The notes below the pieces were generated by a model. That model ran no database searches and was not told the origin of the DNA. It saw only the letters and a program-made list of their open reading frames with translations. The position numbers and the translations under genes were made by a program. Shown here piece by piece: positions 45,602-63,072 of a stretch of DNA of 64,000 nucleotides (position 1 is its first letter; the number at the start of each line of letters is the position of its first letter). The DNA is from Rhodothermales bacterium (GTDB lineage Bacteria; Bacteroidota; Rhodothermia; Rhodothermales; JANQRZ01), in contig JANQRZ010000014.1 of NCBI GenBank assembly GCA_028284265.1, positions 124,001-188,000 of the forward strand. The letters are read 5' to 3'.

Positions 45602-46903
45602 TTAGTTGCCCCCCGGCGGGTCCGGCGGATCGGGCAAGGGGTCAGTAGGATTGCCGCCACTGCCGACTATGCCCTCGGCGGCCGGGTTTCGGGCGTCACG
45701 GCCCGGTCCCGGCACGAAGGCCGCCCCAACGCTGTTGTTGAGGTTGCGAAGTCGGCTGCCGACGAGGTCGATGCCGCCCAAGTCTTCGAGCGCGAGCGCC
45801 GCCGCCAGCCCTTTCTCGACCGAACCGCCTGACTTGGTCACGGCAGCGGTCTGCTCGGCGCGTGCGGCAGCTTGGCCGAAACCGGGGTCGAGCTTGGCTG
45901 CCGCCCGGAAGGAGCCAGTGGCTCCAGCAAAGTTGCCGTCATCTTCCTCTTGCAGACCGCGTGCGTAGAGAAGGAAGGCCTGGAGGTTGCGCGTCGGGAC
46001 CACCTCCAGAGCAGCCCGCTCCTGCGGCGACAGCACGACCTGCATCTGCTGAATGATGGCGAGGACGATCTCCCGCTTTAGCCTGAAGAGCCGATCCAGC
46101 TCGTCTGTGCGAGTCTGAAGATTGGGCTGCGGGTCTCGCTCAAGGTTCCACAGCGCCGCGTCGATGCGGAGGTCATCATCGTCCACGTCGAAGGAACCGC
46201 CGACGGCACTACCGGCCCGAAGCAGTCGCCCGAGGCGCGGAGCCGTCGCGGTGTCGAACGCTTCGGACTGCGAGAGCGCGAGTTCGTCAAGGAGCGTCTG
46301 CAACCGTACCCGCTCGACCACTTGCAGCGCCCCGAGACTTGCGAGGTCCGCCGTCAGAAACTCGCCGAAGGCGCGCCCGAGCGGGGCAAACCGGGGATCA
46401 CTGCCGAGATAGGCAAACGGAAACACCGCCACAACGCTCGGCGACGCGGCCTCGCCCGCGAGAGTATCTTCTCGGGCAATGAGCGCACCCATCTCCTCGC
46501 GGAGCCGCTCGCGGGCCAGCCATTCGTAGCGCCCCTGCAGCAGAGATCGGAACGGCGACCGGGGCGAGACCTCGGTGAACTGCCCATAGAACCGAAGCGC
46601 CTCGCCAGCGTTGCCCTCGGCCTCGACCGTCAGACCGAGGTAGTAGATCGTCTTCGGGTCACTCGGGCCGTCTACGTAGGCCTGCCGCAGATAGCCCTCG
46701 GCCTCCTCGAACTGTTCGGCCTGTGCCAGAAGCGCACCGAGGTCTCGACGTACCCGGACATTGGCAGGCTGACGGACGAGGTCCGCCCGTGCCCGTTCGA
46801 TGGCTCGGTCGAGCGTTTCAGCGTCTGCCCCCACACGGCTCGGCGCGCACGCAGCCAACCCGCAGGCTACCAGCAAGGTCAAGAAGGCAAGCGCACGAGA
46901 CAT
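45602..46903 (-). CDS. CsgG/FlgO-like lipoprotein with TPRs
   Basis: A 433-aa lipoprotein (lipobox GLAAC, Cys19). TPR-like helices at about residues 30-125 are followed by a CsgG/FlgO-like domain at about 150-300 (VVAVFPFAYLGSDPRFAPLG, LQVVERVRLQTLLDELALSQ, LLRAGSAVGGSF). Further TPR units come after it. The C-terminus ends in a Pro/Asp-rich tail. It is a likely periplasmic outer-membrane-associated protein paired with the related gene upstream. Confidence 0.8.
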   Translation of the reverse strand: MSRALAFLTLLVACGLAACAPSRVGADAETLDRAIERARADLVRQPANVRVRRDLGALLAQAEQFEEAEGYLRQAYVDGPSDPKTIYYLGLTVEAEGNAGEALRFYGQFTEVSPRSPFRSLLQGRYEWLARERLREEMGALIAREDTLAGEAASPSVVAVFPFAYLGSDPRFAPLGRAFGEFLTADLASLGALQVVERVRLQTLLDELALSQSEAFDTATAPRLGRLLRAGSAVGGSFDVDDDDLRIDAALWNLERDPQPNLQTRTDELDRLFRLKREIVLAIIQQMQVVLSPQERAALEVVPTRNLQAFLLYARGLQEEDDGNFAGATGSFRAAAKLDPGFGQAAARAEQTAAVTKSGGSVEKGLAAALALEDLGGIDLVGSRLRNLNNSVGAAFVPGPGRDARNPAAEGIVGSGGNPTDPLPDPPDPPGGN

Positions 46904-46949
46904 TAGCGAAGATGCAGCGTCATAGAGAAACAGGAGCCGAGCGAACAGA

Positions 46950-47957
46950 CTAGCTCAGCAGAGGCCGAAGGCTCTCGGCTTTCTGGCGGGCACGGACGTA
47001 GTTCGGGTCGTATTCGAGGGCTTCGATGAACTTGTCGTAGGCCTGCTGATACTTTTCCTCCTCTAGCAAACCAAGCCCCTGCGAGTAGGCCAGCACGGCG
47101 TCCAGCGAGCGCGTCTGCCCACCTTCGCCCTGCCCTGCCATCTCTACATCGATGGCGTCGGCTACTTGCTCGGAGAGGTCTTCGACGAGATCGAAGAAAT
47201 CGTCCTTCTTGCCGAAGATCTGCTCGGCGAGCAGGATCTCGCCGGTCTCGACCTTGACCAAGCGTGCCGAGATCCACATGTCCCGACCGTGGACCGTGAA
47301 TGCACCGAAGAGGACCGCCGTCGCACCGAGTAGTTTGCCCGTCCGCACCGCCGATCCCTGATCCACGAGGCCGGGGTCCCGCTGAAGCTCCAGTTCTTCG
47401 AGGAGCCACTGGATGCGCTCGCGCTCGACGACTTCTAGGTTGGTGGCCCCTTGGAGATAGTTAATCATCATCGAGGCGAACCCTTGCTGCATCGGGTCGA
47501 AGCGCTCCTTCTCATCGACGGAGGCGTTCGTGAAGTCCATCACGGCGAGGGTCGTCATGCCGGGATCGGGCCGCTCGACCTCGTAGCCGGTGTAGTCACG
47601 GCGGACTTCGTAGTAGAGCTTCATGAGCGGCGGCGGCTCGATGTCCGGGTCGAGGTCCACCAGCGGCGGCTCCAAATCAAGGAGTCGATCAATCGTCAGC
47701 CGGGCATCCTCGAAGGCACGCTTGGCGACATAGGCGCGCCCGAGATACTGGAGCGCTTCTTTTTTCACCGTCTTGTCCGCCGAAGCGTCTTCAACAAGCC
47801 CAGAGAAGCCAGCGATAGCCCGGTCATACTCGGCCATCTGGTAGGCGTCGATGGCTTCCTGAAGCACTTCCTGATCTTGGGCGCGGGCTGGCAACGCGAG
47901 AAGAACAACCGCGAGGCATAGCCCCACCCAAGAGGTTCGATACGTGGTCAGGCTCAT
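46950..47957 (-). CDS. CsgG-like periplasmic protein with TPRs
   Basis: A 335-aa protein related to its downstream neighbour. The signal peptide starts at ATG 47957 (LCLAVVLLALPARAQ). TPR helices cover about residues 25-110 and a CsgG-like domain about 140-290 (TTLAVMDFTNASVDEKERFD, LEVVERERIQWLLEELELQR, LGATAVLFGAFTV). One more TPR pair lies at the end. Together the two may form a complex at the outer membrane; their placement after the kinase gene suggests a link to its signalling. Confidence 0.8.
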   Translation of the reverse strand: MSLTTYRTSWVGLCLAVVLLALPARAQDQEVLQEAIDAYQMAEYDRAIAGFSGLVEDASADKTVKKEALQYLGRAYVAKRAFEDARLTIDRLLDLEPPLVDLDPDIEPPPLMKLYYEVRRDYTGYEVERPDPGMTTLAVMDFTNASVDEKERFDPMQQGFASMMINYLQGATNLEVVERERIQWLLEELELQRDPGLVDQGSAVRTGKLLGATAVLFGAFTVHGRDMWISARLVKVETGEILLAEQIFGKKDDFFDLVEDLSEQVADAIDVEMAGQGEGGQTRSLDAVLAYSQGLGLLEEEKYQQAYDKFIEALEYDPNYVRARQKAESLRPLLS

Positions 47958-48071
47958 AGCGTGTATCTGTTGACTGAAGGAGGCATGATGGGTAGAGACC
48001 AACCTGCGCGCCCTACCCGCTTCTCTAGTAAACGGAGTTTCCTCTAAGGTAAGGCCGAGGCGGCACGTATC

Positions 48072-50045
48072 CTATTGTTCTTCCATCTCAAAGATAAGCG
48101 GCACCGTCTGTTGCTCCAGCGAGGGTGTGATGGAAATACTGCGCGTTGGCGGCGTGACACGGTACCCATCGCGGCGGACTTCGACTTGGTACGTGCCAGG
48201 CCCCAGCATAAGAGACGCTGGGGTGGTCTCTCCGGTGGAATTGCCATCGATCCAGATGGAGCCCCACACGGGATTCGCCTGCACATTTACGCGCGTGCGG
48301 AAATGACACGTCGCTGTCGTTCTTTCTCCCGAGCGAACGCGCACGGTTGCCTCGTAGGAGCCGTATTGCGAGCTTTCGCACTGAACACGGTGGCTGCCCG
48401 GAGGAAGGTTGAAGGTGCCGCTTCCATCGGCCTGTTGCCCAGCAACGCGGACCGTGCCGCCCGGATCGACGCTCAGAGCGAGAACGCCGGGAGTCTGCAC
48501 CGGCGGATCTACGGGCGGCGGATCGTCATCGTCTGTTGTTGTTTCGGGCGGTGGCGAGTCTTCAGCCTGCGCACGCTGCAAGTCGGCAGTTAAGCGCACG
48601 GTTATATCGGGCTGTAGTTGCACGCCGGTTCGCTGCCAGCGGCGGTACCCCGCACGCTCGACGCGCACAGCTACGGGTACGCCCGTCGTGTCTTGATACG
48701 TCATCGGCGTCTGTCCGACACGTCTCCCGTTGATATACACGGTGGCAGCACTCGGCGTAGAACTGATCTCCAGCATCCGCGCCATAGCTTGATCCGACGC
48801 GAGGGCTGCGAGCGGAAAACGTAGCGAAACGGGTACCCCCTCGGCTAGCGAGAGCGACGTATCGACCGGTGCATAGCCAATGCGCTCAACCCGGAGTCGC
48901 CCCGTTCCATGCTCCACGGACTCGCGCAGCATCGGCGTCTCGCCGATGCGTTGATCGTTGAAATAGACAACGGCTCCGGGCGGATCGGTGATGATGCTGA
49001 GGGGCACGCCCCCCGAGGAAGGCCAGAACCAATACGCGAGCACCGCCACGAGCAGTGTCACCAACGTCCCGCCGCCAATCAACAGCGGGGTCGTCCTAGA
49101 CCGCGACGCCGCCACTGGAGCGGGAGCCGATGCGACGGGCGTAGGGCTTGGCGCATACGGTTCAGGCTCTACAATCGTCGGTGCTTCGCGGCGAGGCGCA
49201 CGGGCGGATGCAGAGCCAGAAGGAATGGCATCGAAGGCAGCCCGCATCGCCGCCGCGTTCGCGTAGCGTTCGTTCGGGTCTTTGACGAGGGCTTTCATCA
49301 CCGCCTCGCTGACGCCGGGAGGCAAGCCAGGGACGAACTGACTCAGCGGCGGGTACTCCTTCTCCACAATCGTCCGCATTGTCTCGAACTCGCTGCCTCC
49401 CCGCTCAAAGGGTAGGCGACCACTCAGCATCTCGTAGACCGTCATGCCAAGCGCATAGAGATCACTGCGCCCATCGAGGTTGCGGTCGCCTTTGACTTGC
49501 TCGGGGGACATGTAGTAGAGCGTCCCGGCAATGCCTTGCGTGACCGTCGCCGTGCCATCACCCGTGCGGAGCTTGGCGAGGCCGAAGTCGGTGACCTTGA
49601 CGTGGCCGGAATCCGTCAGGAGGATATTGCCCGGCTTGATGTCCCGGTGTACGACCCCAACGCCGTGCGCGTGTTCGAGCGCTGAGATCATCTCTAGGAC
49701 GATGGGACGGGCGTCGTCCCACTTGATCGGCCCCCAGTCCATCTTGTCACTGACGGTGCCGCCCCCGATGTACTCCATCACGATGAACAGCCCGGCGTCG
49801 GTGCGACGCAGCGCGTAGATGCGCGTGATGTTCGGACTATCAATCCGGGCGAGGGCACGCGCTTCGGACCGGAAGCGCCGCTCGAACGAGGCATCGCTGG
49901 CGAGATCGCGGGCGATCATCTTGAGGGCGACAGTCCGCGCGAGGGCGATGTCTTCGGCTTTGTAGACAACGCCCATCCCACCGCGTCCGAGTTCTTCAAG
50001 GATGCGGTAGCCGTCGATCTCCTGGCCTATGAATGTGTCGGACAC
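48072..50045 (-). CDS. Membrane Ser/Thr protein kinase with PEGA ectodomains
   Basis: A 657-aa PknB-type kinase. It has the Gly loop GRGGMGVV (20-27), Lys42, HRDIKPGN (133-140), DFG (153-155) and an activation segment ending GTLYYMSPEQV. A Pro/Ala linker leads to one membrane helix (about 320-341). The outer part contains PEGA-type beta domains (about 348-400, 425-480, 585-640) and a related segment (518-575). It starts with GTG at 50045. Its PP2C and FHA partners are encoded directly upstream, as in T6SS threonine-phosphorylation circuits (PpkA/PppA/Fha). Confidence 0.93.
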   Translation of the reverse strand: MSDTFIGQEIDGYRILEELGRGGMGVVYKAEDIALARTVALKMIARDLASDASFERRFRSEARALARIDSPNITRIYALRRTDAGLFIVMEYIGGGTVSDKMDWGPIKWDDARPIVLEMISALEHAHGVGVVHRDIKPGNILLTDSGHVKVTDFGLAKLRTGDGTATVTQGIAGTLYYMSPEQVKGDRNLDGRSDLYALGMTVYEMLSGRLPFERGGSEFETMRTIVEKEYPPLSQFVPGLPPGVSEAVMKALVKDPNERYANAAAMRAAFDAIPSGSASARAPRREAPTIVEPEPYAPSPTPVASAPAPVAASRSRTTPLLIGGGTLVTLLVAVLAYWFWPSSGGVPLSIITDPPGAVVYFNDQRIGETPMLRESVEHGTGRLRVERIGYAPVDTSLSLAEGVPVSLRFPLAALASDQAMARMLEISSTPSAATVYINGRRVGQTPMTYQDTTGVPVAVRVERAGYRRWQRTGVQLQPDITVRLTADLQRAQAEDSPPPETTTDDDDPPPVDPPVQTPGVLALSVDPGGTVRVAGQQADGSGTFNLPPGSHRVQCESSQYGSYEATVRVRSGERTTATCHFRTRVNVQANPVWGSIWIDGNSTGETTPASLMLGPGTYQVEVRRDGYRVTPPTRSISITPSLEQQTVPLIFEMEEQ

Positions 50046-50089: not shown

Positions 50090-50854
50090 TTACTTCACTT
50101 TAATGACGACGACCGTCACGTTATCCTGGCCGCCGCGCTCGTTGGCAAGGTTGACGAGCCGCTCCGCTGCCGCCTGTGGCTCCTCTGCTTGGACGAGGTC
50201 ACGAATCTCCGCATCGGTAACATGGGCGAGGCCGTCGGAGCACAGCACAAACACGTCGCCTGCTTCAGGTTCGGCGAGCCGCTCGATGTCTACCTCCACC
50301 GTCGGCTCCACACCGACTGCACGGGTGAGGGCATGGCGCTGCGGGTGGCGCTGCGCTTCGTCCTCGGTCAGCACCCCTTCGCGCCGCAGCGCATCGACGA
50401 GCGTGTGGTCGCGCGTGAGTTGCCGGATGCCCTCGCGGTTTACGCGGTAGGCCCGGCTGTCCCCGACGTGGGCCAGCCACGCGCCATTGCCCGTGAAGGC
50501 CACCGCCGTAAACGTCGTCCCCATCTTCTTCGGAACACTCCCCGCATTCGCCCAAGCATAGACCTGCTCATTCGCCGAAGCGATAGCTCCCCGAAAGCGT
50601 TCCTCTGCCGACGCTTCTTCCTGTTCAAAGTAAAACTTCCCGGCAATCTCGACGGCCATGCGACTCGCTCGCCCTCCGTCTTCGTGCCCACCCATACCGT
50701 CGGCGACAATGAAGAGGCAGTGGCCGTCTTCTTCGGTGCAGGCTCCGTCGGAAAAGCGCTCATAGGCGTCTTGGTTCTCCGTGCGCACTTGCCCGACATG
50801 CGTACACGCGCCGGAGCGTAGGGTGAGCGAGCGGTTGGAGCGCTTCCAGAGCAT
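50090..50854 (-). CDS. PP2C-family Ser/Thr phosphatase
   Basis: A 254-aa phosphatase. The metal-binding motifs are VRTENQDAYERF (N-terminal Asp), VADGMGGHEDGG, VGDSRAYRVNREG and SDGLAHVTD, followed by the final GGQDNVTVVVIK. It would reverse phosphorylation by the adjacent kinase, the role PppA plays in characterised T6SS pathways. It starts 12 nt after the FHA-transglycosylase gene stop. Confidence 0.93.
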   Translation of the reverse strand: MLWKRSNRSLTLRSGACTHVGQVRTENQDAYERFSDGACTEEDGHCLFIVADGMGGHEDGGRASRMAVEIAGKFYFEQEEASAEERFRGAIASANEQVYAWANAGSVPKKMGTTFTAVAFTGNGAWLAHVGDSRAYRVNREGIRQLTRDHTLVDALRREGVLTEDEAQRHPQRHALTRAVGVEPTVEVDIERLAEPEAGDVFVLCSDGLAHVTDAEIRDLVQAEEPQAAAERLVNLANERGGQDNVTVVVIKVK

Positions 50855-50866
50855 GGATGGAGCAGG

Positions 50867-52600
50867 TCAGGGCCGAGCGGGCGGCGCGTGGGCGATGGGT
50901 GAAGCCACAGCATCCTCAAGGTAGCGCTGCAGCGGGTTATCGAAGTCAAAGCCGAACAAACGAGGATTCTGGCCGATCACGGCGGCAGAGAAGATGTGGA
51001 GCACGTAGTCCTTCGTCTGGTCCGGCATCCGGTCGCGGTGCTCCGAGAGAAAGCGCCAATAGTTCCGCTCCTGCGGGTTCTGCGGGATGCCTTCGAGGTC
51101 GTGCTGCACCACTTCGAGCGGCGTCAGGTTATCGAGCCGCGGGCTAACTCGGTGCTCGCCCCAATTGTACGAGGCCATCACGAGCAAGCCCGACGCTTGG
51201 GCGAGTTCGGTGTAGATGGCAAGGAGATAGCGAGCGGCTGCGTCGGTCGCTTTCGGGACATCACACCGCTCGTCGATAGGATCGGGCACGCGCTGCTCCA
51301 CGCGGGGACCGGGGACAAGGCCATAGTGCTGCCCCGTACTGGGGATGAACTGCCACATCCCCTTGGCAATACCCCACCGCGTCGGCGGCCCCACGGCGCA
51401 GGCGTCGAAGTTGCTCTCCTGAAGGGCGAGGTAGAAGAACTCGGGCGGCAACCCGTAATCGATGAACGTCTCGACGATGTCACGGGTGTAGCCATTGGCC
51501 TCGGCCCGCCGAATGGCATTCTGGAACCGGGTAGACTGCTGCCATTCGTCGATGATCTCTTGCACCTCACGCACGAAGCCTGCCGGAATGGTGAACTCGC
51601 TCTCATTGAAGATGCGTGCCACCCGGTAGATCTCGCGCTCCTCGGGCGTGAGCCTGCGATAGAGGCCGAGTTCCTCGACGTAGCCCGCGTAGCGCTCCGC
51701 GGTGCGACGACGGCCCTCCTCCAGATTATCGAGTTGGGCGGCGAGGTCGTCGTTGCCCTCCTCCTCAGCCAAGAGGCGCAGTTGCGCGATGGCGATGTCC
51801 TGCTCCTTCATCTCATAGAACAAGGCCACCGTGGACTGCTCCAGCGCCGCCACACGGAACTGCTGCCAGATCGCAAACCCAAGCGCGACGATCAATAGCG
51901 CAGCGACGCCCGCGATGACTTTGCCATAGGCCAGTTTCTGCTTCTGCTGAACCTCCTGAAAGGCCTGCCGGATCATCATGGTCCGTTCGCCTGCAGGCTC
52001 GTCCTTCCGCTCGTCGAAATAGTGCCGGATGACTTGGCTCACAGACGCGGGCGCACTGCCACCCGCACGCTCCCCTGTCCCGCGGGATACCGGTCCCGTG
52101 TTGTGCTGTGTGGCTCCGTTGGCGGATGAGCTGTAGGTGTCCGACTGCCGCTGGGTATCCTGCGCGGCGGGCTGTTGCGCGGTGCCGTCGTAGAAGGGAT
52201 GGCGCTTGGCCTCCGGCTCCGTCGGAACCACAGCCCGCTCCTCTTGGCTCTCTGATATCCCAGCCCTCAAGGGCGCGTCTACTGACAGGTAGACAAACGG
52301 CCCATCCTTCCCCAAGCGTACCGTCGTCTCCCCGCTTAGGCTCACGCGCTCCACGCGTTCTCCGTTGTGGTATGTCCCGTTCGTGCTCCCGGCATCGCGC
52401 AGCACCCACGCTCCGCCTTCTTCAATCACCTCGACGTGAATGCGACTCACCCTCCCGGAGTCGATGTGCAGCGTCGCCTGCATCCCGCGCCCGATGTTGA
52501 ACGGCTCGGTGAAGACGCGCTCCATGTTGGGAATGGAACTGCCCTCAATGCGAACCCGAACAGGGGGTCGCTTGGCGGTGGGGGACGACGAGAAAGACAA
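50867..52600 (-). CDS. FHA domain - TM helix - lytic transglycosylase fusion
   Basis: A 577-aa protein with an unusual domain order. An N-terminal FHA phosphothreonine-binding domain (about residues 14-108) has NIGRG (35-39), SRIHVEV (52-58) and GSTNGTYHNG (71-80). A disordered linker leads to one membrane helix (about 228-246) and a coiled coil. An SLT/MltE-type transglycosylase domain (about 385-500) follows, with catalytic Glu395 in ALQESNF, KGMWQFIPSTG and ASYNWG. The topology places FHA in the cytoplasm and the wall-cleaving domain in the periplasm. The start is TTG at 52600; no better start is visible. Kinase and phosphatase genes follow downstream and the sheath gene precedes it. Confidence 0.9.
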   Translation of the reverse strand: MSFSSSPTAKRPPVRVRIEGSSIPNMERVFTEPFNIGRGMQATLHIDSGRVSRIHVEVIEEGGAWVLRDAGSTNGTYHNGERVERVSLSGETTVRLGKDGPFVYLSVDAPLRAGISESQEERAVVPTEPEAKRHPFYDGTAQQPAAQDTQRQSDTYSSSANGATQHNTGPVSRGTGERAGGSAPASVSQVIRHYFDERKDEPAGERTMMIRQAFQEVQQKQKLAYGKVIAGVAALLIVALGFAIWQQFRVAALEQSTVALFYEMKEQDIAIAQLRLLAEEEGNDDLAAQLDNLEEGRRRTAERYAGYVEELGLYRRLTPEEREIYRVARIFNESEFTIPAGFVREVQEIIDEWQQSTRFQNAIRRAEANGYTRDIVETFIDYGLPPEFFYLALQESNFDACAVGPPTRWGIAKGMWQFIPSTGQHYGLVPGPRVEQRVPDPIDERCDVPKATDAAARYLLAIYTELAQASGLLVMASYNWGEHRVSPRLDNLTPLEVVQHDLEGIPQNPQERNYWRFLSEHRDRMPDQTKDYVLHIFSAAVIGQNPRLFGFDFDNPLQRYLEDAVASPIAHAPPARP

Positions 52601-52692: not shown

Positions 52693-54525
52693 TCATGCAC
52701 GCGGCACGGGAAGCCCCACCGCGAGGTGGATGGGGTGATGCAGGATATGACGAGGTGGCTGCAACCGAACCGCCAGCAGATCGTGACCCTCGATATCAGC
52801 GTCGGGGACTGGCTCGACCGTCACGGCATCGCCGGGCACGTCGGCTTCGGAAGCTCCGAGGAAGGTACGGAGCCGCTGCACGATGGCCTCTTGCTTCTCT
52901 TCCAATGAGTCTGTCGCATTGAGTTCGCTAGGAAGCTTGAGCAACCGGTGCGCAGCACGAGCCGCGAAGAGACCACACCCGAGCGTCGCATGCGCCGCCG
53001 CATGGGCCGTCTTCTTCGGGTCGTCGAAGGTTTGGGGCTTCGAGAGGTTGGCGGCATGAGCCACCTGCATCGTATCCCGGTTGGCCGTGCCCGTGAGTAC
53101 AGCAAAACCGGCCTCGGCCAGTTCGGCGGCCTTCGCCTCCGGCAAGAGGGTTGCCAGCGGTGTCTGCCCGCGCTCCGTCGCGTGGATCGGCAGGTTCTCG
53201 ATAGACTGACCGGCAAGATGGGTCGGCCATCCGGTCTTGGCAAACGACGCACCGAGGGCCACAGCGACGGCAAGCGCCCCCCCGCCCCACAGGAAACCCT
53301 CTTCCTCAAGCGGCACGTCCTTCGATGGATGGTTCGGGCCGTAGGGCGAGCGGAGCAAGAACGGTGGGAATGCGAGCGCGATGAACCGTGCCTCATCGTT
53401 CTCCCGGAGCTTGTTCCAGTGGATGTAATCCGGTCCCTCCACGAGGTGCGGAACGAGCGGAATCGTGGTCGCGCCATCGGGCTTATCCAAGCCGAAGAAG
53501 CCGGAGTCCGCCGAGGCGATGAGGGGCGCTTGTAGGCTCGCCCCGGTTCCGGCGAGGTCTTCCAGTACCGCCACGTCGGCCTGACTGTTGCCAAAGGCGA
53601 AACCGAGAATCACCGCTGAGAGCGGTGCCCGGTCGTCGTCGGCGCTGTGCTCTGGGAGGAGTACCTGCTCGTAGAGGGCTTCGCCGAGGTCGTCGCGCCC
53701 GGCGGGCAACACATCGAGTTGCACCCCGTCGCGGAACGGTAGGCGGTCCACGAGGAATTTTAGCCCGCGCCACGCTGACTCCAAGCGCCGGAGGCCCGGG
53801 TGCTCGAGGATCGCCCGGAGCTGGCCTCCGAGCTTCCGGTCAAAGTCCGCAATGATCCCGTCAGCGACGGCACCCGCAATGCGCGGCTCATCGCCACTGA
53901 CGGCCCCAGCGATGGCGTCCCCGATCCCGGTCGTTTCATCGGCACTGCCATCGCCGGAATCCACCATGCCCATCAGCCGGTCGAGCGCGTCCTCTTCCGC
54001 AGCCGGTTTCGGTACGGGCTTCGGCTTGGGAGGTGAGACGGTAAGCTGGGCGTACAACCCATCGGCCGAGGCTTCGTCGACGCCAGCCTCGGCGAGGCGA
54101 GCGCGGAAGGTATCGCGGTCTGTGCCCTGCGTGCGGACCCCGTGGACCTCGGTGCGAATCGCCAGCAGACGAGCAAGGGCAGGCACCTGCCGCGCAATCC
54201 CACCCGGCGTGAAGTCTTTCAGCGACCGGAAGCGCAAGGCGATCTCCAGCGACTGCGGCTGCGGGCTGAGATGGTTCGGCACATCGAGCCGGAGCGCGGG
54301 CTGCTGTTCTTCCATCCACCCGGCAAACCCGTTGGTGTCCACCCGACGGACGAGCGAGGGGCCGCGCCAGTTGCTCCGTGCCTGCGGCGTCAGGTCAGCG
54401 ACGAGCAACAGCCGGAGCGGCATTGGTGGCTCACGTCGCTGGGCCGCGGGGCCAGCCTGAGACATCGAGGTCGTGTCCGGGTCGGAGGTGATGCGAATGC
54501 CTACGTTTTTGTGCGGGTCGCTCAT
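52693..54525 (-). CDS. Single-chain T6SS contractile sheath protein (TssB-TssC fusion)
   Basis: A 610-aa protein that joins both sheath subunits. Residues about 33-160 match TssB/VipA (LLLVADLTPQA, LEIALRFRSLKDFTPGGIAR). A Pro/Lys linker with an acidic stretch (165-200) leads to a TssC/VipB-like part (about 225-610: LGGQLRAILEHPGLRRLESA, WRGLKFLVDRL, ASADSGFFGLD, HWNKLRENDEARFIALAFPP, FLWGGGA). In well-studied T6SSs these are two genes. The Tss assignment is by motif; other contractile systems are less likely given VgrG, PAAR and ClpV next door. Confidence 0.85.
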   Translation of the reverse strand: MSDPHKNVGIRITSDPDTTSMSQAGPAAQRREPPMPLRLLLVADLTPQARSNWRGPSLVRRVDTNGFAGWMEEQQPALRLDVPNHLSPQPQSLEIALRFRSLKDFTPGGIARQVPALARLLAIRTEVHGVRTQGTDRDTFRARLAEAGVDEASADGLYAQLTVSPPKPKPVPKPAAEEDALDRLMGMVDSGDGSADETTGIGDAIAGAVSGDEPRIAGAVADGIIADFDRKLGGQLRAILEHPGLRRLESAWRGLKFLVDRLPFRDGVQLDVLPAGRDDLGEALYEQVLLPEHSADDDRAPLSAVILGFAFGNSQADVAVLEDLAGTGASLQAPLIASADSGFFGLDKPDGATTIPLVPHLVEGPDYIHWNKLRENDEARFIALAFPPFLLRSPYGPNHPSKDVPLEEEGFLWGGGALAVAVALGASFAKTGWPTHLAGQSIENLPIHATERGQTPLATLLPEAKAAELAEAGFAVLTGTANRDTMQVAHAANLSKPQTFDDPKKTAHAAAHATLGCGLFAARAAHRLLKLPSELNATDSLEEKQEAIVQRLRTFLGASEADVPGDAVTVEPVPDADIEGHDLLAVRLQPPRHILHHPIHLAVGLPVPRA

Positions 54526-54545: not shown

Positions 54546-55613
54546 TTAGGCGACGCGGAGGTCGATGCCTGCGATGGTGTCTAGGCTCAACGAAGGAAGG
54601 GGATACATCCCGCGCCAGACCTGATAGAATACACCCTCGTCAGGGAGAAACACGAGGGTATCAAGATGAGCCGTGAGCGGGTGGCGGTGCGACGGGCGCT
54701 CGGCAGGGTCGGGCACTTCGTCCGATTCAGCCTCGCTGCTCGCTTCGTCATAGACGTGGAGGGCGATGTCGGGGCGGAGACCGGGAAGCCGGAAGCGCCG
54801 GTAGCCGTCGGGGGTGAGATGGCGCAACTCGACCTCCTCGTTACCTGCCAAGTAGCCGGGGACTTGGAGCGACGGGTGGGCACCGTTGTTGAAGCCAAAG
54901 TCGTAGTCGGCGGGCAGGCCGAACTCAGGATCAAGATCGTTGATCGCCTGACCGGTGAGGGTGGCACGGGGCTGCCAGCTTCGACCGTAAAAACCAAACC
55001 CAACGGGTGCGGGCTGGTCGTCCCACGAACGAATCAGTTGGCGGGGGTCTTCGAGGTTCGGCAGGGCCTTGCCGTCCACCGACTCGCGCGTCTTCTTTCC
55101 GATAAAGCCCTGCCCGATGTGATTCTGCGCGCACCACCCTTTCCCCTTGTGGTCGAACCCGCCGAAGGCACGCTCGTAGACGAGCGGCATCTCGGTAAAT
55201 GGCTCGGGGTTGGACATCGTCGGCACCATCACCATCCGGGTTGGGAACACCCACCGCCGATCACCAAAGACGCGGATCGCTTGCTGCACGCGACCGACGC
55301 GGAGCGCCACGTCGAGCGCTGCAACCGGCTTGCCGCCCGGCGCATAGGCCCGGCCTACGAGTACCACATCGGCGCGCGGCTTGAACGGCACCACATCGCT
55401 TTCGAGCCGGATGCTGCCCGTGACATCGCCCTTGAAGAACTCGTCACTGGCCGCGATTGGGAGTTGCTCGTCGGCAGCAGACGCGAGGGTGCCGTCGGCT
55501 CCATCGGGCATGCGAAACGTGGCCTTGAGCAGCACGGCGAGGCAGGGCTTGCGGTCCGGCCCCATACCCAGCGCAAGGCCATCGACAAACGGCGTGTCGT
55601 TCGTGACGTTCAT
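54546..55613 (-). CDS. DUF2169 protein, T6SS effector adaptor-like
   Basis: A 355-aa cytoplasmic-type protein opening VTNDTPFVDGLALGMGPDRK and containing VVLVGRAYAPGGKPVAALDV, GDRRW and YERAFGG, the DUF2169 hallmarks. DUF2169 genes are commonly found with PAAR, pentapeptide and RHS genes in T6SS loci and are thought to help load effectors. It starts with ATG overlapping the pentapeptide-repeat gene stop by 4 nt. Confidence 0.88.
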   Translation of the reverse strand: MNVTNDTPFVDGLALGMGPDRKPCLAVLLKATFRMPDGADGTLASAADEQLPIAASDEFFKGDVTGSIRLESDVVPFKPRADVVLVGRAYAPGGKPVAALDVALRVGRVQQAIRVFGDRRWVFPTRMVMVPTMSNPEPFTEMPLVYERAFGGFDHKGKGWCAQNHIGQGFIGKKTRESVDGKALPNLEDPRQLIRSWDDQPAPVGFGFYGRSWQPRATLTGQAINDLDPEFGLPADYDFGFNNGAHPSLQVPGYLAGNEEVELRHLTPDGYRRFRLPGLRPDIALHVYDEASSEAESDEVPDPAERPSHRHPLTAHLDTLVFLPDEGVFYQVWRGMYPLPSLSLDTIAGIDLRVA

Positions 55614-56659
55614 TGGCTAGGATGGTCTGGTGCGGCGGCAGTCTGGCGATAAAGCGGTACACGCCGAATGGCGGGAGGCCCCGTGCCCGGTCCAAACGCA
55701 GGCTTGACCGGTTCGGGCATCCGCGCCGACTCGAAATCGCACTGCGTCCGCTGGAAGGCATCGAGTGAGGCCCAGTAGAAATCGGCCCCGAAGAAGCTGC
55801 ACGTGGCGGCCTGCGCTCCGGCGAACTCGGCTCCGACGAAGTTGGCGAAGTTAAACGAGGACTGACTCAGCTTCGTCTCCCGCAGATCCGCATACTCAAA
55901 CACGGCGTTCTCGACGGTGCTATGCAGGAATGTCGCACGGGCAAGCGAGGCGCGGATGAAGGTGCCGACGGAGAGCTTGGCTCCCGAGAAGTCACACCCC
56001 GAAAGGTCAGCGCGTTGAGCGAAGGTGGCGACGAGGAACGCGCTGCGGAAGATGGCACCGGGAGCGCTCGCATTTTCGAGGATCGCCCCGGAGAGCACAG
56101 CGTCCGTGCAGTCGGCTCCGGCGAGGTTGGCGTCGCGCAGCAGGGCCTGTTCGAGGTTTGCCCCGCCAAGCTTCGCCCCACTGAAATCGGCATCGGCAAA
56201 GATGCTCCTGGCGAGGTTGGCCCCGGCGAGATCGCATCCGCCCAGCCTCGCCGCCCCTAGCACGGATTCTTGAATCGTGCAGCGTAGCATCGAAGCCCCC
56301 TGAAAGTCAGCTCGCTCGACGGCACAGGAAGCCAGCACAGCCTCATTGAGCCGGGCGTTGCGAAACACGCTGTCTTCGAGGAGGCACTCGTCGAAGGCGG
56401 CCCCATTGAGGTCCGCGTCCGCGAGGTTCGCCCCGTTCATTAGCGAGCTAGAAAACTGAACACCCCGGAGGTTCGCTCCTGTGAAATTCACGCCTTCGAG
56501 CAAGGCCCCTGCGATCTCGGCCTCTTGGAGATTCGTTCCGGCGAGGTCAGCTCCCGTGAGATCGACACCGGCGAGAGGCACCTCCCGCAAGTCGGCCCCG
56601 CGCAGGTCTGCACCCGGCGTGAGCCGTTCGAGGTCGAAACCGAACGCCGTCGTTTCCAT
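55610..56659 (-). CDS. Pentapeptide-repeat protein
   Basis: A 349-aa protein composed almost wholly of A(D/N)LxG-type pentapeptides (LRGADLREVPLAGVDLTGAD and onward, about 60 units), forming a right-handed quadrilateral beta-helix. The C-terminal 30 residues are Pro-rich and not repetitive. Such proteins recur beside DUF2169 in T6SS loci; adaptor, effector-handling or immunity roles are all possible. It is translationally coupled to the DUF2169 gene and starts 5 nt after the RHS stop. Confidence 0.9.
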   Translation of the reverse strand: METTAFGFDLERLTPGADLRGADLREVPLAGVDLTGADLAGTNLQEAEIAGALLEGVNFTGANLRGVQFSSSLMNGANLADADLNGAAFDECLLEDSVFRNARLNEAVLASCAVERADFQGASMLRCTIQESVLGAARLGGCDLAGANLARSIFADADFSGAKLGGANLEQALLRDANLAGADCTDAVLSGAILENASAPGAIFRSAFLVATFAQRADLSGCDFSGAKLSVGTFIRASLARATFLHSTVENAVFEYADLRETKLSQSSFNFANFVGAEFAGAQAATCSFFGADFYWASLDAFQRTQCDFESARMPEPVKPAFGPGTGPPAIRRVPLYRQTAAAPDHPSQ

Positions 56660-56664
56660 GAGTA

Positions 56665-59325
56665 TCAGGAACGGGTGAGTGTCTGATAGAGCCGGAGCAC
56701 GAGCACATCGGAGAGACTACCCGATGGGGTAAGCGGTGCCGATGCGAGGTAGGACCCGTGTGCCTGCCCTACCCATAGACGCGGGTGCAACACGCCCGTC
56801 CGATGGGAGCCGGTGAGTGTGTCGTCGGGTGAGCGCGCTGCATCGAGTTGGTGGTGCGGCAATGCACCGGGGAGCCGCCGCGTGAAGTGCGGGTCATAGC
56901 GGTCGCGGGCGAGGGCAAAGAAATCGAGCACGGTCCACGGCAACCCAAGCATCGTCGCGCTTGGAACCCCGGTCTCGAAACCTTCTGCCCGCGCGAGTGC
57001 CGACCATCGCTCCACAGGCGGCCCCGGTTCGGTAGATGCGTCAGCCAGCGCAGCCTCCGCCCCGAGAACAACGGTTCGGACGATCCGAGGGGCGAAAGGC
57101 ATTTGAGGCAGCCGCATCTCCTCATACCCCCATAGTGGCAATGTGAGTGTCCCGATCTCTGCCACGAGCGCAGCCCCATGTGGCGCGACGAAGAAGGCGA
57201 GGCTGTCGCCCACTGCTACACGCTCCGCCGTGCCTGCCACCGTTCGCTGCTCCGTCCCGCCCGCAGAATGAAACACCGTGCATCGGTCGAGGGCATCATA
57301 CTGAAACGTACAGCCGACCCCATCCCCCTCCAGCGCCATCAGTCGGTCGCCATCATCGAAGACAAAGCGGTAGGTCGCCTCACCTGCGTGGAGCGTTGCG
57401 GGTCGGAACCGGGCGTCATAGTCGAGCCGCAGCGTGCGGCCCTCTCCCCCCATCGTCGTCAGCAACCCATCGGGGTCGTAGCCCAACGTAACCGCCTCGG
57501 TGTCGTGCACGACACCGATGAGGTGCCCGTCGGCATCATACTCGAAGAACGTGCTGGTCTCATCGTCACCCTCCTCCTGCTCCACGGCGATGAGTTCACC
57601 CCTCGTGCCGTACTGGAACTGCCGATGGCGACTGTCGGGCGTGTGATCCTCCAGCAGTTCGCCGTGTACGCTGTAGACGCGGCGCTCCTCCCCGGTTGTC
57701 ACGGTCACATGGCCCGCTGCATAGCCGAAGATCGCCGTGCGAGTCGGCCCCTCGACGCGCGTGAGACGCTCCTGATCGTCGTAGGCAAACTGAACCTCCC
57801 CCGCAGCACCGCTCGCTCCTTGCATCCGTCCAGCGAGGTCATAGGCCAAGCGGAGTGCCCCCTGCCTCGATTCGATGGATAGCATGCGCCCGAGGCTGTC
57901 GTAGGTCCGGCGGACCTCGGCCCGTTCGGAGTCGGCGATCCGCACTAGACGGCCCACTCCGTCGAACTCCCACGCCACGCGGTACCCGTTCCCGACCTCA
58001 ACTCCAATGAGGCGACCTTCGGCGTCATAGCGAAAGCGCTGCTCGCGCCCGCGCCGGTCCGTGCGGACGGCAACCCGCCCGTAGAGGTCGGGCGTGAGGC
58101 GCAAGCGTATCCCTTCCTCGTCCTCCACAGCCAGCGCCATCCCCTCCCGGCGAAGCTCCACTCTCCGTCCGGCAGGGCTGACTACGGCGGCGGCGCGCCC
58201 TTTCCGGTCGCGCTCAAACGCCCACGCGGCACCGAGTGGGGTCGTGAGTCCAACGAGGTTAAACCGCTCGTCGTAATCGAAGGCATAGACTCCACCCGTT
58301 CCACCATCGACGGACTGGAGCAGCCCACCCGGCCCGAGTACCGCGTTCGAGAATCGGCTTTCGTGATCGATCTGGAAGTGCTCCCCACTCTCTGGATCGA
58401 GCCGCTGGAACATGGCGACGGTGCCATCGGGCGCAGAGTAGCCGATGAGATGCTGCGCCTCGTCGTAGTAATAATTGAAGCTCTCGCACGCCGCGTTGAT
58501 CCGTTCGAGGACGACAGTGCCCGCAGTCCCCGGAGCGTAGCGGTAGAGCGTCTGCTGCCCATCTATCCCGATAGCGCGCGTCGTCTGCCGGAGCGCGTCG
58601 TAGGCAAGGTGGGTCACAGCCGTGCCGTCGGAGCGCCAGAGGGCGATGCAGCGGCGGTCGCCGTCGTACTGGGCGAGCCACGCTGCGCTCCCCGAACCGG
58701 TGCGAACCAGCAGGCCGTCTTGGTAGGCATACTCCGTCGTCTGCCCTAGGCCGTCTGTCTCGGCGACGAGCGTATTTCCCATCCCGTAGCGGAATGTCCG
58801 CACGGCGCTTGCCCGACCATCTGCCCCCGTCACAACGATCTGCCCGACGACACCGCCTGCGTACACGAATCGGATGCGCTGCCCACCGGAGCCGGTGATC
58901 TCGGCAAGGCGTCCACCGGTGTATCCAAACTTGATGCGGTTGCCGTTCGGGTCTACGAGGCGCTCAAGCGGAAGCACACTCCCGCTCGCCCCCTTACGAA
59001 AAACGTCTTGCACGAGAGGCGAGGCAAACACCACCCACACGTCGGCATGGTGCTGGAGCGTCAATCCGCTGGGATGCCGTGCCTCCATGCCCACACCGAC
59101 CGGCTCGAACACGGTCTCGCGCCCCAAGCCATCGCGGTAGACAACCCGGTCGGCCATGACGTTGAGGGTGCGATCCAAACCGTGCTGCCAGCCCGCGCCG
59201 AAGATGCCCGACGGTGCCCCACTGCGGTACTGCCGCGCCAGCACAAGCGGGAGCGCCCCTTCCAACCGGAGGTCCGTCCGGTCAAGCGTGGTCTCGCCTG
59301 TTGCGATGTCGGCGCGCAGCATCAT
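56665..59325 (-). CDS. RHS-repeat protein without recognised toxin tail
   Basis: An 886-aa protein. The N-terminal part is DUF6531-like (DRTDLRLEGALPLVLARQYR, GAGWQHGLDRTL). About 20 RHS/YD repeats then follow (YDEAQHLIGYSAPDGTVAMF; LAYDLAGRMQGA; FEYDADGHLIGVVHD). The last 140 or so residues, from about 745, are unlike RHS and unrecognised. The DPxG...G.NxYxYxxNP motif that usually closes the RHS shell before a variable toxin is absent. No small immunity-like gene is next to it. It may be a T6SS cargo with a novel tail or a structural shell. Confidence 0.85.
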   Translation of the reverse strand: MMLRADIATGETTLDRTDLRLEGALPLVLARQYRSGAPSGIFGAGWQHGLDRTLNVMADRVVYRDGLGRETVFEPVGVGMEARHPSGLTLQHHADVWVVFASPLVQDVFRKGASGSVLPLERLVDPNGNRIKFGYTGGRLAEITGSGGQRIRFVYAGGVVGQIVVTGADGRASAVRTFRYGMGNTLVAETDGLGQTTEYAYQDGLLVRTGSGSAAWLAQYDGDRRCIALWRSDGTAVTHLAYDALRQTTRAIGIDGQQTLYRYAPGTAGTVVLERINAACESFNYYYDEAQHLIGYSAPDGTVAMFQRLDPESGEHFQIDHESRFSNAVLGPGGLLQSVDGGTGGVYAFDYDERFNLVGLTTPLGAAWAFERDRKGRAAAVVSPAGRRVELRREGMALAVEDEEGIRLRLTPDLYGRVAVRTDRRGREQRFRYDAEGRLIGVEVGNGYRVAWEFDGVGRLVRIADSERAEVRRTYDSLGRMLSIESRQGALRLAYDLAGRMQGASGAAGEVQFAYDDQERLTRVEGPTRTAIFGYAAGHVTVTTGEERRVYSVHGELLEDHTPDSRHRQFQYGTRGELIAVEQEEGDDETSTFFEYDADGHLIGVVHDTEAVTLGYDPDGLLTTMGGEGRTLRLDYDARFRPATLHAGEATYRFVFDDGDRLMALEGDGVGCTFQYDALDRCTVFHSAGGTEQRTVAGTAERVAVGDSLAFFVAPHGAALVAEIGTLTLPLWGYEEMRLPQMPFAPRIVRTVVLGAEAALADASTEPGPPVERWSALARAEGFETGVPSATMLGLPWTVLDFFALARDRYDPHFTRRLPGALPHHQLDAARSPDDTLTGSHRTGVLHPRLWVGQAHGSYLASAPLTPSGSLSDVLVLRLYQTLTRS

Positions 59326-59342
59326 AGGTCAGACTCCTAGCA

Positions 59343-59672
59343 TCAACCGACCAGTACCGTTGGCGCACCCATCACAATCGGGTTCGGTGGCGGGAGCGGA
59401 ACAACAGCGCCTGGCTCCATCACCTGATCGCCGAGTCCAGCAGCAGGCTTGTTGTTGATGAGGACGGTAACGGCTCCGGGCGGCGCGGTTACGCCGGGAC
59501 CGTGCGGCGTCCCCGGCCCCACCGGCGGCGGCGCATTCGGGATCGGGCATGTATGCTGGTCGCCGACACACCACGCCGGACGGTTGGCGATCAGCACAGT
59601 CGGCTGCCCCGCTCCAAGGAGCGGCGGGCCGTGCACGGCGTTGTCAGCGAGTTGAGCGGCTGGTTTCGGCAT
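59343..59672 (-). CDS. PAAR-like spike-tip protein
   Basis: A 109-aa protein with repeated short beta elements: GQPTVLIANRPAWCVGDQHT, GAVTVLINNKPAAGLGDQV and GAPTVLVG. This is the PAAR/DUF4150-like pattern that forms the sharp cone on VgrG. It includes His and Cys residues (CVGDQHTC) that could bind the tip metal. It lies between the vgrG and RHS genes, so it probably links them. Confidence 0.85.
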   Translation of the reverse strand: MPKPAAQLADNAVHGPPLLGAGQPTVLIANRPAWCVGDQHTCPIPNAPPPVGPGTPHGPGVTAPPGAVTVLINNKPAAGLGDQVMEPGAVVPLPPPNPIVMGAPTVLVG

Positions 59673-59724
59673 GGTGAGGTAGTGTTTCGTGTAGGGGTCA
59701 ACGACGACGTGAGCATGAGAGCTC

Positions 59725-62700
59725 TCATGCTCCAGCCTTAACTAGGCTTCCCTTGACCGACGTGATCTTGCCCACGGCATTCATCATCGTACCCTCGACC
59801 GTCGCATCTAGGGAAGCCTTGAGCTTGATGTTCAACCCGTCCATCTTGTTGTTCATGTTGGCTGCCGAAGTAATATTGCTGCCCTTCATCGTGATGTCCG
59901 AGGTGGCTTGCTGGGTGATCTTTTTCCCTTTAATCATGATATCCCCGCTCTTTTTCAGCTCAATACTAGCCTGCCCGCACTTGATGAGAATAGACCCATC
60001 TTTGATGGTTATGCCACTATCATCTTTCTCGTAGTCACTCCCCACAACAAACTGGACAAGTTTTTCAGAGAAGCCTAGCAGCTCTTTCTCGTCGAGCTTA
60101 AGCCTACCCTTTGCTTTGTTGGGCGCAAGGTTTCTCAAGGCTGCTTTATCCTTCAGCCCGTCGCGAGACCCGACTTCCAATACGACGCCGTCGCCTCCAG
60201 ACCATGCGTGAACCATTCCTTTATTAGCAAAAGCCTTGACATCTCCTTCGCCCTCGACGTGGGACATGATGTCGCCTGTGCCTTTCTGCTCCGACCCTCC
60301 CGTATGCAAGAGGATGTCCCCGTCATCGTTGTTAATGTCGATGGAGAACATCTCGTTGGGATCCTTGCTGAAGTTTGCGAAACGGGACTCAAATTGTCCG
60401 ATGAACGCCTTCAGAGCCGGACTCACAGCATCGCCTAGCTTGCCCAACGCTTTGAAGATGCCCTTGCCTTTGTAGGGCCGTCCTTTCGTAGTGATCTTGA
60501 TTCCTTCGTGCGAGCTGATCTCGACGCCCAAATCCGCTTTTTGCTCGATATTGCCGAAGGACTTCAGCGCCATCCCGCCCTGTCCGGCAGCCACGGAGGT
60601 GCTCTGAAGCGAGGTCAGTTTTAGCTCGCCCATCGACGAGACGTTGATGCCGGTGCGCTGGAGGAGCGTGAAAACCAGCGCACTCAACCGCTGCTCTTTG
60701 AAGTTCGACCGCCATTTGAACGCTGCCTTCACCTTCGGGTTGACGTGCGGATTCGTCTTGTACTTGTCCTCATCCTCCTTTGTGTCCATGATCTCGTCGG
60801 CCGTGCCGTTGATCACGTCCTGCCAGATCGTGTTGATGAGAAACTTCGAGATGGCCTCGGCCTGATACTGGTTTTTGCTGTCGTCGTCTCCGTTGAACAG
60901 GCTGGTGCTGAACATGCCAAAGAGGTTAGGCGATGTAATATTCACCCCATCCTTACCCGTGATACTTACATTCTTGTTCGTCCATATATTGACCCCAATA
61001 GGCGTCGTCGTCCCGAACGTATCGTCGACGTAGTCATCGGTCGTGATTTGGGAGGCCATGATGCCTAGGACTTCGGACGCCATGCCGGGGAAGTCTCGCG
61101 TGAAGACCGAGCGGAAGTAGCCAACCGCCGTGCTGATAATGCCGAGCGTCCGCTCTAGGTTACTGAGGTGGCGATACCCCCCCAACTCCATCTTGCTTCC
61201 CCAGTAAATGTCTCGGCCTGCACTGTTTTGAGCCTTCCCCACTTGGAATGTCATCCCGACGTTGGCTCCGGCGTCATTGTCATCCAAGATGATCTGATGC
61301 CCGCGCGCACTACGGATCACGTTTTTAAACTTGTCAAACGTGGACCTAGAACTCTCCGCCGCCGATCCCGTGGTGGGGTTCTGCGACCCTAGTCCATGCT
61401 CGGTCGTGGGCACGGGTGTGTGCGTCCACGGGTTCGCCACCATCGAGATGCCGAGAGGCCGATCCGGGTCGCCGTCGAGGCAGGCAAACACCATCTCGGT
61501 GTCCGGGCGATTCGGGAAATGGAACCCGTAGTCCGGTCCGGCATGCGGCTGGGCCAAGCGAACCCTCTTGGAAGTCCCCGACATACCAGCCCCGTTCTCG
61601 GGGTCAGGATCGAACGGGATTTCTACGTGATACCGCCCTTCAACATCGACGGGGCCCTCGTAAGGCAAGCGTTCATTGTATTCTGCTAGGTCAATATCGT
61701 ACTGCGCTTTTGCCGCGTCGTATGCCGGTTTATCGACACCGTATGTAGGCGAGCTTGGGTCAGGAGGCACAGGGGCGACGGGCGGACTTGGGGCAACCAC
61801 CTTCGCTGTCATCACACCGGGGACGCGCGGAACGGGAGTGATCCGGGGCGAGCGATACTGGATGCTGCTCGGCAGACAGGTAAACGTGTTCTGGTATACC
61901 GCAGGGTTCTGTTCCGTCAGCGTTCGTTCGGGATCGAGCGGCTCGAACCTGTGCTCTACCGCGGTAATCAGGAATTCGCGTGCCCCGGTCGACGGGAAAC
62001 GGAAGTGCCCCACGAGATCGAAAAGGTGCCCGGCTTGGAGCCGCACGACGTTCGACGCCCCTTGCCCCCTGACCCGTTGTGCTTCTAACTCCTGCGCCCG
62101 CACCATGGCGAGGTGGGTTACCTGAGTCGTCCGCCTTGTGATGTCATCGTTGCCAGCGGCTGCCGAGTCAGGGTCGTTGCTCTTCTTGTAGTCACTACCG
62201 ACGTGCTTCTGCTCGACGGTAAACAGCCCATGCTCATAGTGCGTCCCGACGCGGGCATACTCCGGCTCTGCCGCCGTCGTGTTCGCCATCGAGGTGTTGT
62301 GACTGACTTGCTCTGCGGCTGCAAACGACTCGTAGTCGTAGTCCCTTACCTCCACGGCTTTCGGCACAATGTGCTCATCGTAGATAAAGCGGTGGATATT
62401 CTCGCCGGTGGGATGCGGCCCTTCGGTGGTTTGGACAAAGTCAACTGACTTCGGGGCCTGTAGTGGATAGAGGTGGTCCTTACTGTCCGAGATGACGAGC
62501 ACGCCCCCGTCGTAGAAGTAATACCACCCCTCGTGCTCCATGAGCCGTTGAACGAAGTCGAGATCGGTTTCCCGGTACTGCGCGCAGAACTCACGCTTCT
62601 GATAGGTCTCCTTGAGCTGGAAGGTATAGTCGCTTGAGCTGAGGACGGGCACGCCGGGGCTGACCTCCTGCTCAAAGACCCGCTCGATGATTCCCTTTAC

Positions 62701-63072
62701 GTCAAGCCCCTGAAAGACGCGGCTCTGCTGAAACAGCTTCAGCCGCCACAGCTTAGGAACGAGAACAGCCTCACACTCTACGTACCGCTTCCCGTTCGTC
62801 TCGAAAGTTCGGTTCATGCGGAAGCTGGACACCACGCCTGCGGTCCTCACCGTCGTGGGGATGGCGGGCGATCCTGTGCTCTGCGCCATCACCAATTCGG
62901 CATTCTGGTTGACCACCTTCGAGAAGTCGAGTTGGGGGTCCGTGTGCCGAAGAACGAGCCGGTATTCGAATGGCTGTGAGATCCGCTCCTCTCCCCTAAA
63001 CGATATGACGTCGAACGTCGTCTCCGTTGTATCGGTAGCGGTGACCTTGAAGGTGAAAGTAGGAGCAGGCAT
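59725..63072 (-). CDS. VgrG spike protein, extended
   Basis: A 1115-aa TssI/VgrG protein. The gp27-like part (about residues 1-400) has RISQPFEYRLVL, KLFQQSRVFQGLDVKGIIER and TDLDFVQRLMEHEGWYYFYD. The gp5/OB-fold part lies at about 480-560 (YHVEIPFDPDP, MVFACLDGDPDRPLGISMV). A very long C-terminus includes a largely helical middle (about 640-800) and a beta-helical needle with repeats such as DIMIKGKKITQQATSDITMK. The usual core is about 650 aa, so 400 or more residues are extra. The DNA of the C-terminal half is visibly less GC-rich. Confidence 0.9.
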   Translation of the reverse strand: MPAPTFTFKVTATDTTETTFDVISFRGEERISQPFEYRLVLRHTDPQLDFSKVVNQNAELVMAQSTGSPAIPTTVRTAGVVSSFRMNRTFETNGKRYVECEAVLVPKLWRLKLFQQSRVFQGLDVKGIIERVFEQEVSPGVPVLSSSDYTFQLKETYQKREFCAQYRETDLDFVQRLMEHEGWYYFYDGGVLVISDSKDHLYPLQAPKSVDFVQTTEGPHPTGENIHRFIYDEHIVPKAVEVRDYDYESFAAAEQVSHNTSMANTTAAEPEYARVGTHYEHGLFTVEQKHVGSDYKKSNDPDSAAAGNDDITRRTTQVTHLAMVRAQELEAQRVRGQGASNVVRLQAGHLFDLVGHFRFPSTGAREFLITAVEHRFEPLDPERTLTEQNPAVYQNTFTCLPSSIQYRSPRITPVPRVPGVMTAKVVAPSPPVAPVPPDPSSPTYGVDKPAYDAAKAQYDIDLAEYNERLPYEGPVDVEGRYHVEIPFDPDPENGAGMSGTSKRVRLAQPHAGPDYGFHFPNRPDTEMVFACLDGDPDRPLGISMVANPWTHTPVPTTEHGLGSQNPTTGSAAESSRSTFDKFKNVIRSARGHQIILDDNDAGANVGMTFQVGKAQNSAGRDIYWGSKMELGGYRHLSNLERTLGIISTAVGYFRSVFTRDFPGMASEVLGIMASQITTDDYVDDTFGTTTPIGVNIWTNKNVSITGKDGVNITSPNLFGMFSTSLFNGDDDSKNQYQAEAISKFLINTIWQDVINGTADEIMDTKEDEDKYKTNPHVNPKVKAAFKWRSNFKEQRLSALVFTLLQRTGINVSSMGELKLTSLQSTSVAAGQGGMALKSFGNIEQKADLGVEISSHEGIKITTKGRPYKGKGIFKALGKLGDAVSPALKAFIGQFESRFANFSKDPNEMFSIDINNDDGDILLHTGGSEQKGTGDIMSHVEGEGDVKAFANKGMVHAWSGGDGVVLEVGSRDGLKDKAALRNLAPNKAKGRLKLDEKELLGFSEKLVQFVVGSDYEKDDSGITIKDGSILIKCGQASIELKKSGDIMIKGKKITQQATSDITMKGSNITSAANMNNKMDGLNIKLKASLDATVEGTMMNAVGKITSVKGSLVKAGA

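Follow-up and report, generated by a model that had tools for sequence, protein, structure and literature searches.

A predicted FHA-lytic transglycosylase fusion protein with one membrane helix in a type VI secretion locus of a Rhodothermales bacterium

The window, a stretch of 64,000 nucleotides from a Rhodothermales bacterium analysed here at its full length, carries a gene whose predicted product joins an FHA domain, a membrane helix and an MltD-type lytic transglycosylase (LT). Family profiles, reading frame and predicted structure confirm that this protein, hereafter FHA-SLT, is a genuine single chain (Table 1). We favour, with a probability of about 0.6, the reading that FHA-SLT is an LT controlled by a kinase and a phosphatase, which serves type VI secretion system (T6SS) assembly in most carriers; this suggests that an internal phospho-signal positions a cut in the wall. 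How a T6SS opens the wall of the attacking cell itself, at the right place and time, has been worked out in very few cases, in which a separate protein does the cutting. Here, a phosphate reader and a wall cutter are fused, kept in two bacterial groups and accompanied by a candidate phosphosite, and a link from kinase signalling to local wall opening becomes directly testable with point mutants.

Table 1. Features of the window at the FHA-SLT locus (window coordinates)
Feature	Coordinates	Strand	Remarks
Second CsgG/TPR protein	45602..46903	(-)	lipobox-like signal
CsgG/TPR protein, after kinase	46950..48002	(-)	
Ser/Thr kinase	48072..50045	(-)	kinase motifs HRDIKPGN and DFG; helix 321-339 in the membrane, three PEGA domains beyond it
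PP2C-type phosphatase (Stp1/IreP family)	50090..50854	(-)	13 bp downstream of FHA-SLT
FHA-linker-membrane helix-lytic transglycosylase fusion (FHA-SLT)	50867..52600	(-)	577 aa; FHA 35-97, Thr207, helix 226-244, Glu395
Divergent TssB-TssC fused sheath-like protein	52693..54525	(-)	upstream of FHA-SLT
T6SS tip/effector block: DUF2169, pentapeptide, RHS, VgrG	54546..63072	(-)	
TssH (ClpV)	63130..63999	(-)	cut by window edge

Architecture and conservation of FHA-SLT

The open reading frame starts with TTG and encodes its 577 residues in a single frame without frameshift. Pfam recognises the FHA domain (E 6e-13) and, in the same frame and above the cut-off, an SLT domain at residues 385-486 (E 4e-12). 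A disordered linker separates the FHA domain from the only membrane helix, at about 226-244. An earlier sequence-only reading had proposed one polypeptide with an FHA domain, one membrane helix and an SLT domain with Glu395, and Pfam, the single frame and the predicted structure all agree with it.

A scan of 84,980 species genomes, which finds close relatives only, yielded 13 relatives, and further homologues were taken from 394 genomes of the window's phylum and 297 of the phylum of Desulfopila. The resulting alignment holds 24 homologues, from Bacteroidota/Rhodothermota and Desulfobacterota, and all those with a full N-terminus share the order FHA, helix, SLT. Among the carriers are two in culture, Roseithermus sacchariphilus (L007) and Desulfopila sp. 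IMCC35008 (L015), both environmental bacteria. The search for this architecture across genomes, which the earlier reading had called for, thus found relatives that keep FHA and SLT in one gene rather than in separate genes. Since the fused frame recurs in the 23 other homologues, a chance or frameshift fusion and an assembly artefact are ruled out. The fusion is rare in the Desulfopila phylum, where 2 of the 297 sampled genomes carry it.

The net charge around the helix averages +5.5 on the N-terminal and -0.1 on the C-terminal side, and the N-terminal side is the more positive one in 23 of 24 homologues. This bias argues for a single-pass, N-in topology with the FHA domain inside and the enzyme outside. 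On the enzymatic side, the protein combines the SLT fold with the conserved residues of an MltD-type LT, namely E395-S396, G414-M-W-Q-F and A476-S-Y-N-W-G, and Glu395 is kept in 23/24 homologues. The FHA fold bears the GR, SxxH and NG motifs of phosphothreonine (pThr)-binding domains. The pocket, which the sequence-only reading had singled out as a point to verify, is intact: the full set G37 R38 S52 R53 H55 S72 N74 G75 is present in 22 of 23 FHA domains, against a mean column identity of 47%.

The predicted structure (mean pLDDT 71) contains a well predicted beta-sandwich at 14-107, a region of low confidence at 111-186, an unbroken helix at 203-281 that spans the membrane segment, and a helical C-terminal domain. 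The model combines an FHA fold and an MltD fold in a single chain. Its N-terminal domain matches FHA-1 of Rv1747 (Z 16.9) and also the FHA domains of GarA and DgcB, and the best structural matches of this domain are pThr-reading FHA domains, including DgcB-FHA (PDB 6hc1). The C-terminal domain (model 325-563) aligns over 190 residues with Pseudomonas aeruginosa MltD (Z 13.7), which is also the best PDB sequence match (8rhe). FHA-SLT shares catalytic fold and motifs with MltD; however, it differs by its transmembrane anchor and cytoplasmic FHA domain, by an insert near 404-411 and in that Pfam found no LysM domain.

No NCBIfam family covers FHA-SLT, which scores 38 bits against TIGR03354 (TagH/Fha1), below the curated cut-off of 120. 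A search of the open-access literature, extending to few subscription papers, found no published fusion of FHA with an LT or SLT domain, so that a description elsewhere is possible; in two matching papers, one of them PMC1084347, FHA and LT are different proteins.

Just before the membrane helix lies a conserved segment, mostly G-E-[HR]-T207-x-x-[IVLM]-R-x-A. Thr207 is present in 22/24 homologues and, in each of these, I, V, L or M occupies position +3, a T-x-x-[IVLM] context that resembles known FHA ligands. In GarA and OdhI, the FHA domain reads a pThr of its own protein. We infer from the sequence that Thr207 is a candidate FHA-docking phosphosite, new here, which the kinase may phosphorylate and on which the protein's own FHA domain or that of a neighbour may dock. 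DgcB offers a parallel: the structure of its FHA domain contains the phosphorylated N-terminal peptide of the same protein (PDB 6hc1). However, GarA, OdhI and DgcB are soluble regulators, whereas the proposed pThr207 would be juxtamembrane, the output periplasmic and the self-binding is hypothetical.

Three relatives of one genus reach 1040-1093 residues through an expanded linker (L048:16419-19700, L050:16574-19765 and L054:18959-22081). The linker there runs to several hundred residues, contains a recurring '[ST]GFF.[AS]L'-like motif and may be a multivalent binding region. The window's genome also has a paralogue of the FHA part on another contig (G000:C6; L021:13985-14629(-), 60% identity). 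It ends right after the membrane helix, lacks the enzyme and the Thr207 motif and has no recognised T6SS gene nearby; it is a possible decoy or relic.

The signalling genes and the T6SS-i cluster

All the genes concerned lie on the minus strand. From downstream to upstream, the window contains the two CsgG/TPR genes, the PEGA kinase, the PP2C phosphatase, FHA-SLT, the TssB-TssC-like fusion and the DUF2169, pentapeptide, RHS, VgrG and TssH genes. A Ser/Thr kinase and a PP2C had been named as direct neighbours, and both were found, downstream of FHA-SLT. The CsgG/TPR protein that follows the kinase is a probable member of the signalling module.

The locus had been called T6SS-like. The assignment to T6SS holds and the qualifier can be dropped, as the locus belongs to a full T6SS-i cluster whose genes continue beyond the window edge. 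The same contig continues with TssG, F, E, Hcp, C, B, A, TagF, M, L, K and J and a TagH-type FHA protein, and the cluster (G000:C19, ∼183.7-206.7 kb, ending at G000:C19:206720) is complete for T6SS-i (TssA-C, TssE-H, Hcp, VgrG and TssJ-M). TssA, E, F, G, H, M, Hcp, VgrG and TssC were named by Pfam or NCBIfam profiles, and TssB, TssJ, TssK and TssL by place and homology among the compared clusters. The separate TagH-like FHA protein (C19:205251-206720) scores 89 bits against TIGR03354, below the cut-off of 120. The description of FHA-SLT as next to the sheath gene stands as far as a sheath-like neighbour goes and fails for the canonical sheath: the neighbour is a divergent TssB-TssC fusion, and canonical TssB and TssC are separate genes at C19:194000-196107. 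This fusion scores below both NCBIfam sheath cut-offs and its predicted structure (pLDDT 54.8, low confidence) was left unused. It lies beside FHA-SLT in 10-11 loci, with relatives in L005, L006, L011, L016, L039, L048, L050, L054, L058 and L061.

With a kinase, a PP2C and an FHA protein, the cluster encodes the gene set of the threonine-phosphorylation pathway. In Agrobacterium, Fha binds pThr14 of TssL (PMC3953482). The PpkA/PppA/Fha pathway of P. aeruginosa and A. tumefaciens likewise combines a Ser/Thr kinase, a PP2C and an FHA reader with TagF, all encoded in a T6SS-i cluster. The present cluster differs in that one of its FHA readers spans the membrane and carries an LT, in addition to the separate TagH-like one, and in that its kinase bears PEGA domains and is accompanied by CsgG-TPR genes. 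The sequence-only reading had stated that in characterised systems FHA proteins are cytoplasmic and wall-cutting enzymes separate, and the published accounts of Fha, TagX and MltE bear this out (PMC10433429). A wall cutter is linked to T6SS assembly in the case of MltE, recruited to the T6SS of EAEC (Santin and Cascales 2017), and of TagX (Weber 2016), as reviewed in PMC10433429. There, MltE is described as a housekeeping enzyme on which TssM has a stimulating effect and TagX as a separate endopeptidase, neither of them fused to a phosphate reader.

Association with the phosphatase and with T6SS

Within 12 kb of FHA-SLT, a kinase was found in 16/25 loci, a PP2C in 15/25, CsgG genes in up to 13/25 and the TssB-TssC fusion in 10/25 (11 with G034, where the best match is TssC), several of the remaining contigs being too short to tell. 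Among the 394 genomes of the window's phylum, FHA-SLT occurs in 13 and TssM in 11, and 9 have both (P 7e-14 by genome and 6e-9 by genus). A close PP2C (E <= 1e-50) is present in 12 of the 13 FHA-SLT genomes and in 1 of the 381 others, 13 in all (P 7e-21 by genome and 4e-13 by genus); this cut-off was picked after viewing the match list, and 29 genomes match at 1e-35. Both pairs of P values assume independent genomes or genera, and the carriers are partly related. The closest statistical partner of FHA-SLT is thus PP2C, rather than the injection apparatus. The link to T6SS that had been proposed for the fusion holds as a strong association (9/13 carriers with TssM) and not as an obligatory one (4/13 without), the PP2C being the closer partner.

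The four carriers G055, G251, G014 and G254 have no match to TssM or to the TssC-type family PF05943, and the proposal that FHA-SLT is strictly a T6SS part was rejected on these 4 of 13 carriers of the phylum sample. In G055 and G251, a PP2C-kinase-CsgG-CsgG operon lies elsewhere in the genome, and in G254 the PP2C, the kinase and two CsgG genes stand together on another contig. FHA-SLT adjoins an exo-muramidase gene in G055 (NamZ by Pfam) and a similar one in G251. G014 is the only carrier without a close PP2C. Its pocket is broken (R38N, R53P, N74T), the sole such case, and Thr207 is replaced by Arg. The only homologues that lack Thr207 are those of G014 and G254, two genomes without T6SS. 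Since the other three T6SS-less genomes keep an intact pThr pocket, the pocket does not track T6SS itself. The phosphate-reading part is correlated, in single lineages, with the PP2C-kinase pair rather than with T6SS as such. In G254, neither the catalytic Glu nor the third motif is present in the enzyme part; this homologue (L056:1-1319(-)), with an intact FHA domain and a degenerate catalytic site, is cut by the contig end and is possibly a pseudo-enzyme or a decaying gene.

Conversely, G328 has a T6SS-i without FHA-SLT. This genome contains no close PP2C, and neither the PP2C-kinase-CsgG block nor the TssB-TssC fusion is part of its cluster; a kinase and a CsgG homologue occur elsewhere in the genome. 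The PP2C-kinase-CsgG-CsgG group, with CsgG/LpoB-like TPR proteins as at 45602-48002(-) of the window, was also seen in T6SS-less genomes (L077, L078 and L079). TssM-bearing T6SS-i clusters occur in 11 of the 394 phylum genomes (G000, G030, G132, G267, G328, G353 and others), whereas only T6SS-iii has been reported for Bacteroidota (PMC10781749), a mismatch that perhaps reflects a different definition of the phylum.

Possible mechanism and competing explanations

In the reading that we favour, FHA-SLT would be a dedicated, inner-membrane-anchored LT whose cytoplasmic FHA domain is the output of a threonine-phosphorylation switch. The switch would consist of the PEGA kinase and the PP2C phosphatase, probably together with the CsgG-TPR envelope proteins. 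The kinase would phosphorylate the threonine read by the FHA domain, for which the best candidate is the protein's own Thr207, on which the FHA domain of that chain or of an adjacent one would dock, on the model of GarA, OdhI or DgcB; alternatively, the ligand may be a T6SS inner-membrane component such as TssL. Docking would cluster or position the periplasmic LT, which would open or remodel the peptidoglycan mainly where the T6SS-i envelope complex is assembled, and PP2C would reset the switch. Since lineages without T6SS retain both the phospho-module and the LT, T6SS would be the usual but not the only client, and the module could, as these members suggest, serve other envelope tasks. The coincidence in G014 of a missing close PP2C, a missing T6SS and a broken pocket fits this reading as a correlation in a single lineage. 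The separate TagH-like FHA protein of the same cluster could instead be the main phospho-reader.

A more specific version is put forward tentatively, as possible but well short of an even chance. The kinase and PP2C would set the phosphorylation of Thr207, the FHA domain would dock on it, whether in its own chain or in an adjacent one, and the resulting transmembrane switch would cluster or activate the periplasmic LT. FHA-SLT would then represent a new class of wall-cutting enzyme, a portable, kinase-gated peptidoglycan-opening module adopted by T6SS loci.

It is rather unlikely, though the strongest of the competing explanations, that FHA-SLT is a phospho-regulated wall enzyme of general envelope maintenance, part of a kinase/PP2C/CsgG envelope-stress module, which sits in T6SS loci by gene clustering only and acts away from the assembly site. 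The four T6SS-less carriers, two of them with the adjoining exo-muramidase gene, the PP2C-kinase-CsgG operon that is independent of T6SS in G055, G251 and G254, and the tighter association with PP2C than with TssM are all consistent with this explanation. However, in two groups distant from each other, most FHA-SLT loci show linkage to T6SS genes, and 9 of the 11 TssM genomes of the phylum sample have it. Moreover, the T6SS-less members require two changes on the FHA-SLT tree, where three of them nest among T6SS-linked members, although the outgroup root falls on the partial sequence L009 and is hence unreliable.

We consider improbable a second explanation, in which the FHA fold has a structural or scaffolding function, of the kind suggested for the SctD/YscD family of type III secretion; it would bind a membrane or baseplate protein of the T6SS without reading phosphate, and the LT would be recruited constitutively. 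A weak Pfam match to Yop-YscD_cpl points in this direction, and in type III secretion a domain of FHA fold precedes a transmembrane segment in an export ring, where a purely structural role has been considered for it (PMC1084347). Against this stand pocket residues that are near-invariant while the remaining domain is variable, the association with the kinase and PP2C, and the loss of the pocket in the sole carrier without a close PP2C.

Finally, that FHA-SLT is a T6SS cargo effector with transglycosylase activity, encoded in the effector/tip block, is very improbable: several loci do place it downstream of the VgrG, RHS and DUF2169 genes, and LT-type effectors such as Tse4 exist (PMC10433429), but a secreted effector is disfavoured by the N-in membrane helix with its cytoplasmic FHA domain, by the presence in T6SS-less genomes and by a vertical-like divergence that tracks TssM and TssK (r 0.96 and 0.93; 8 genomes, relatedness ignored).
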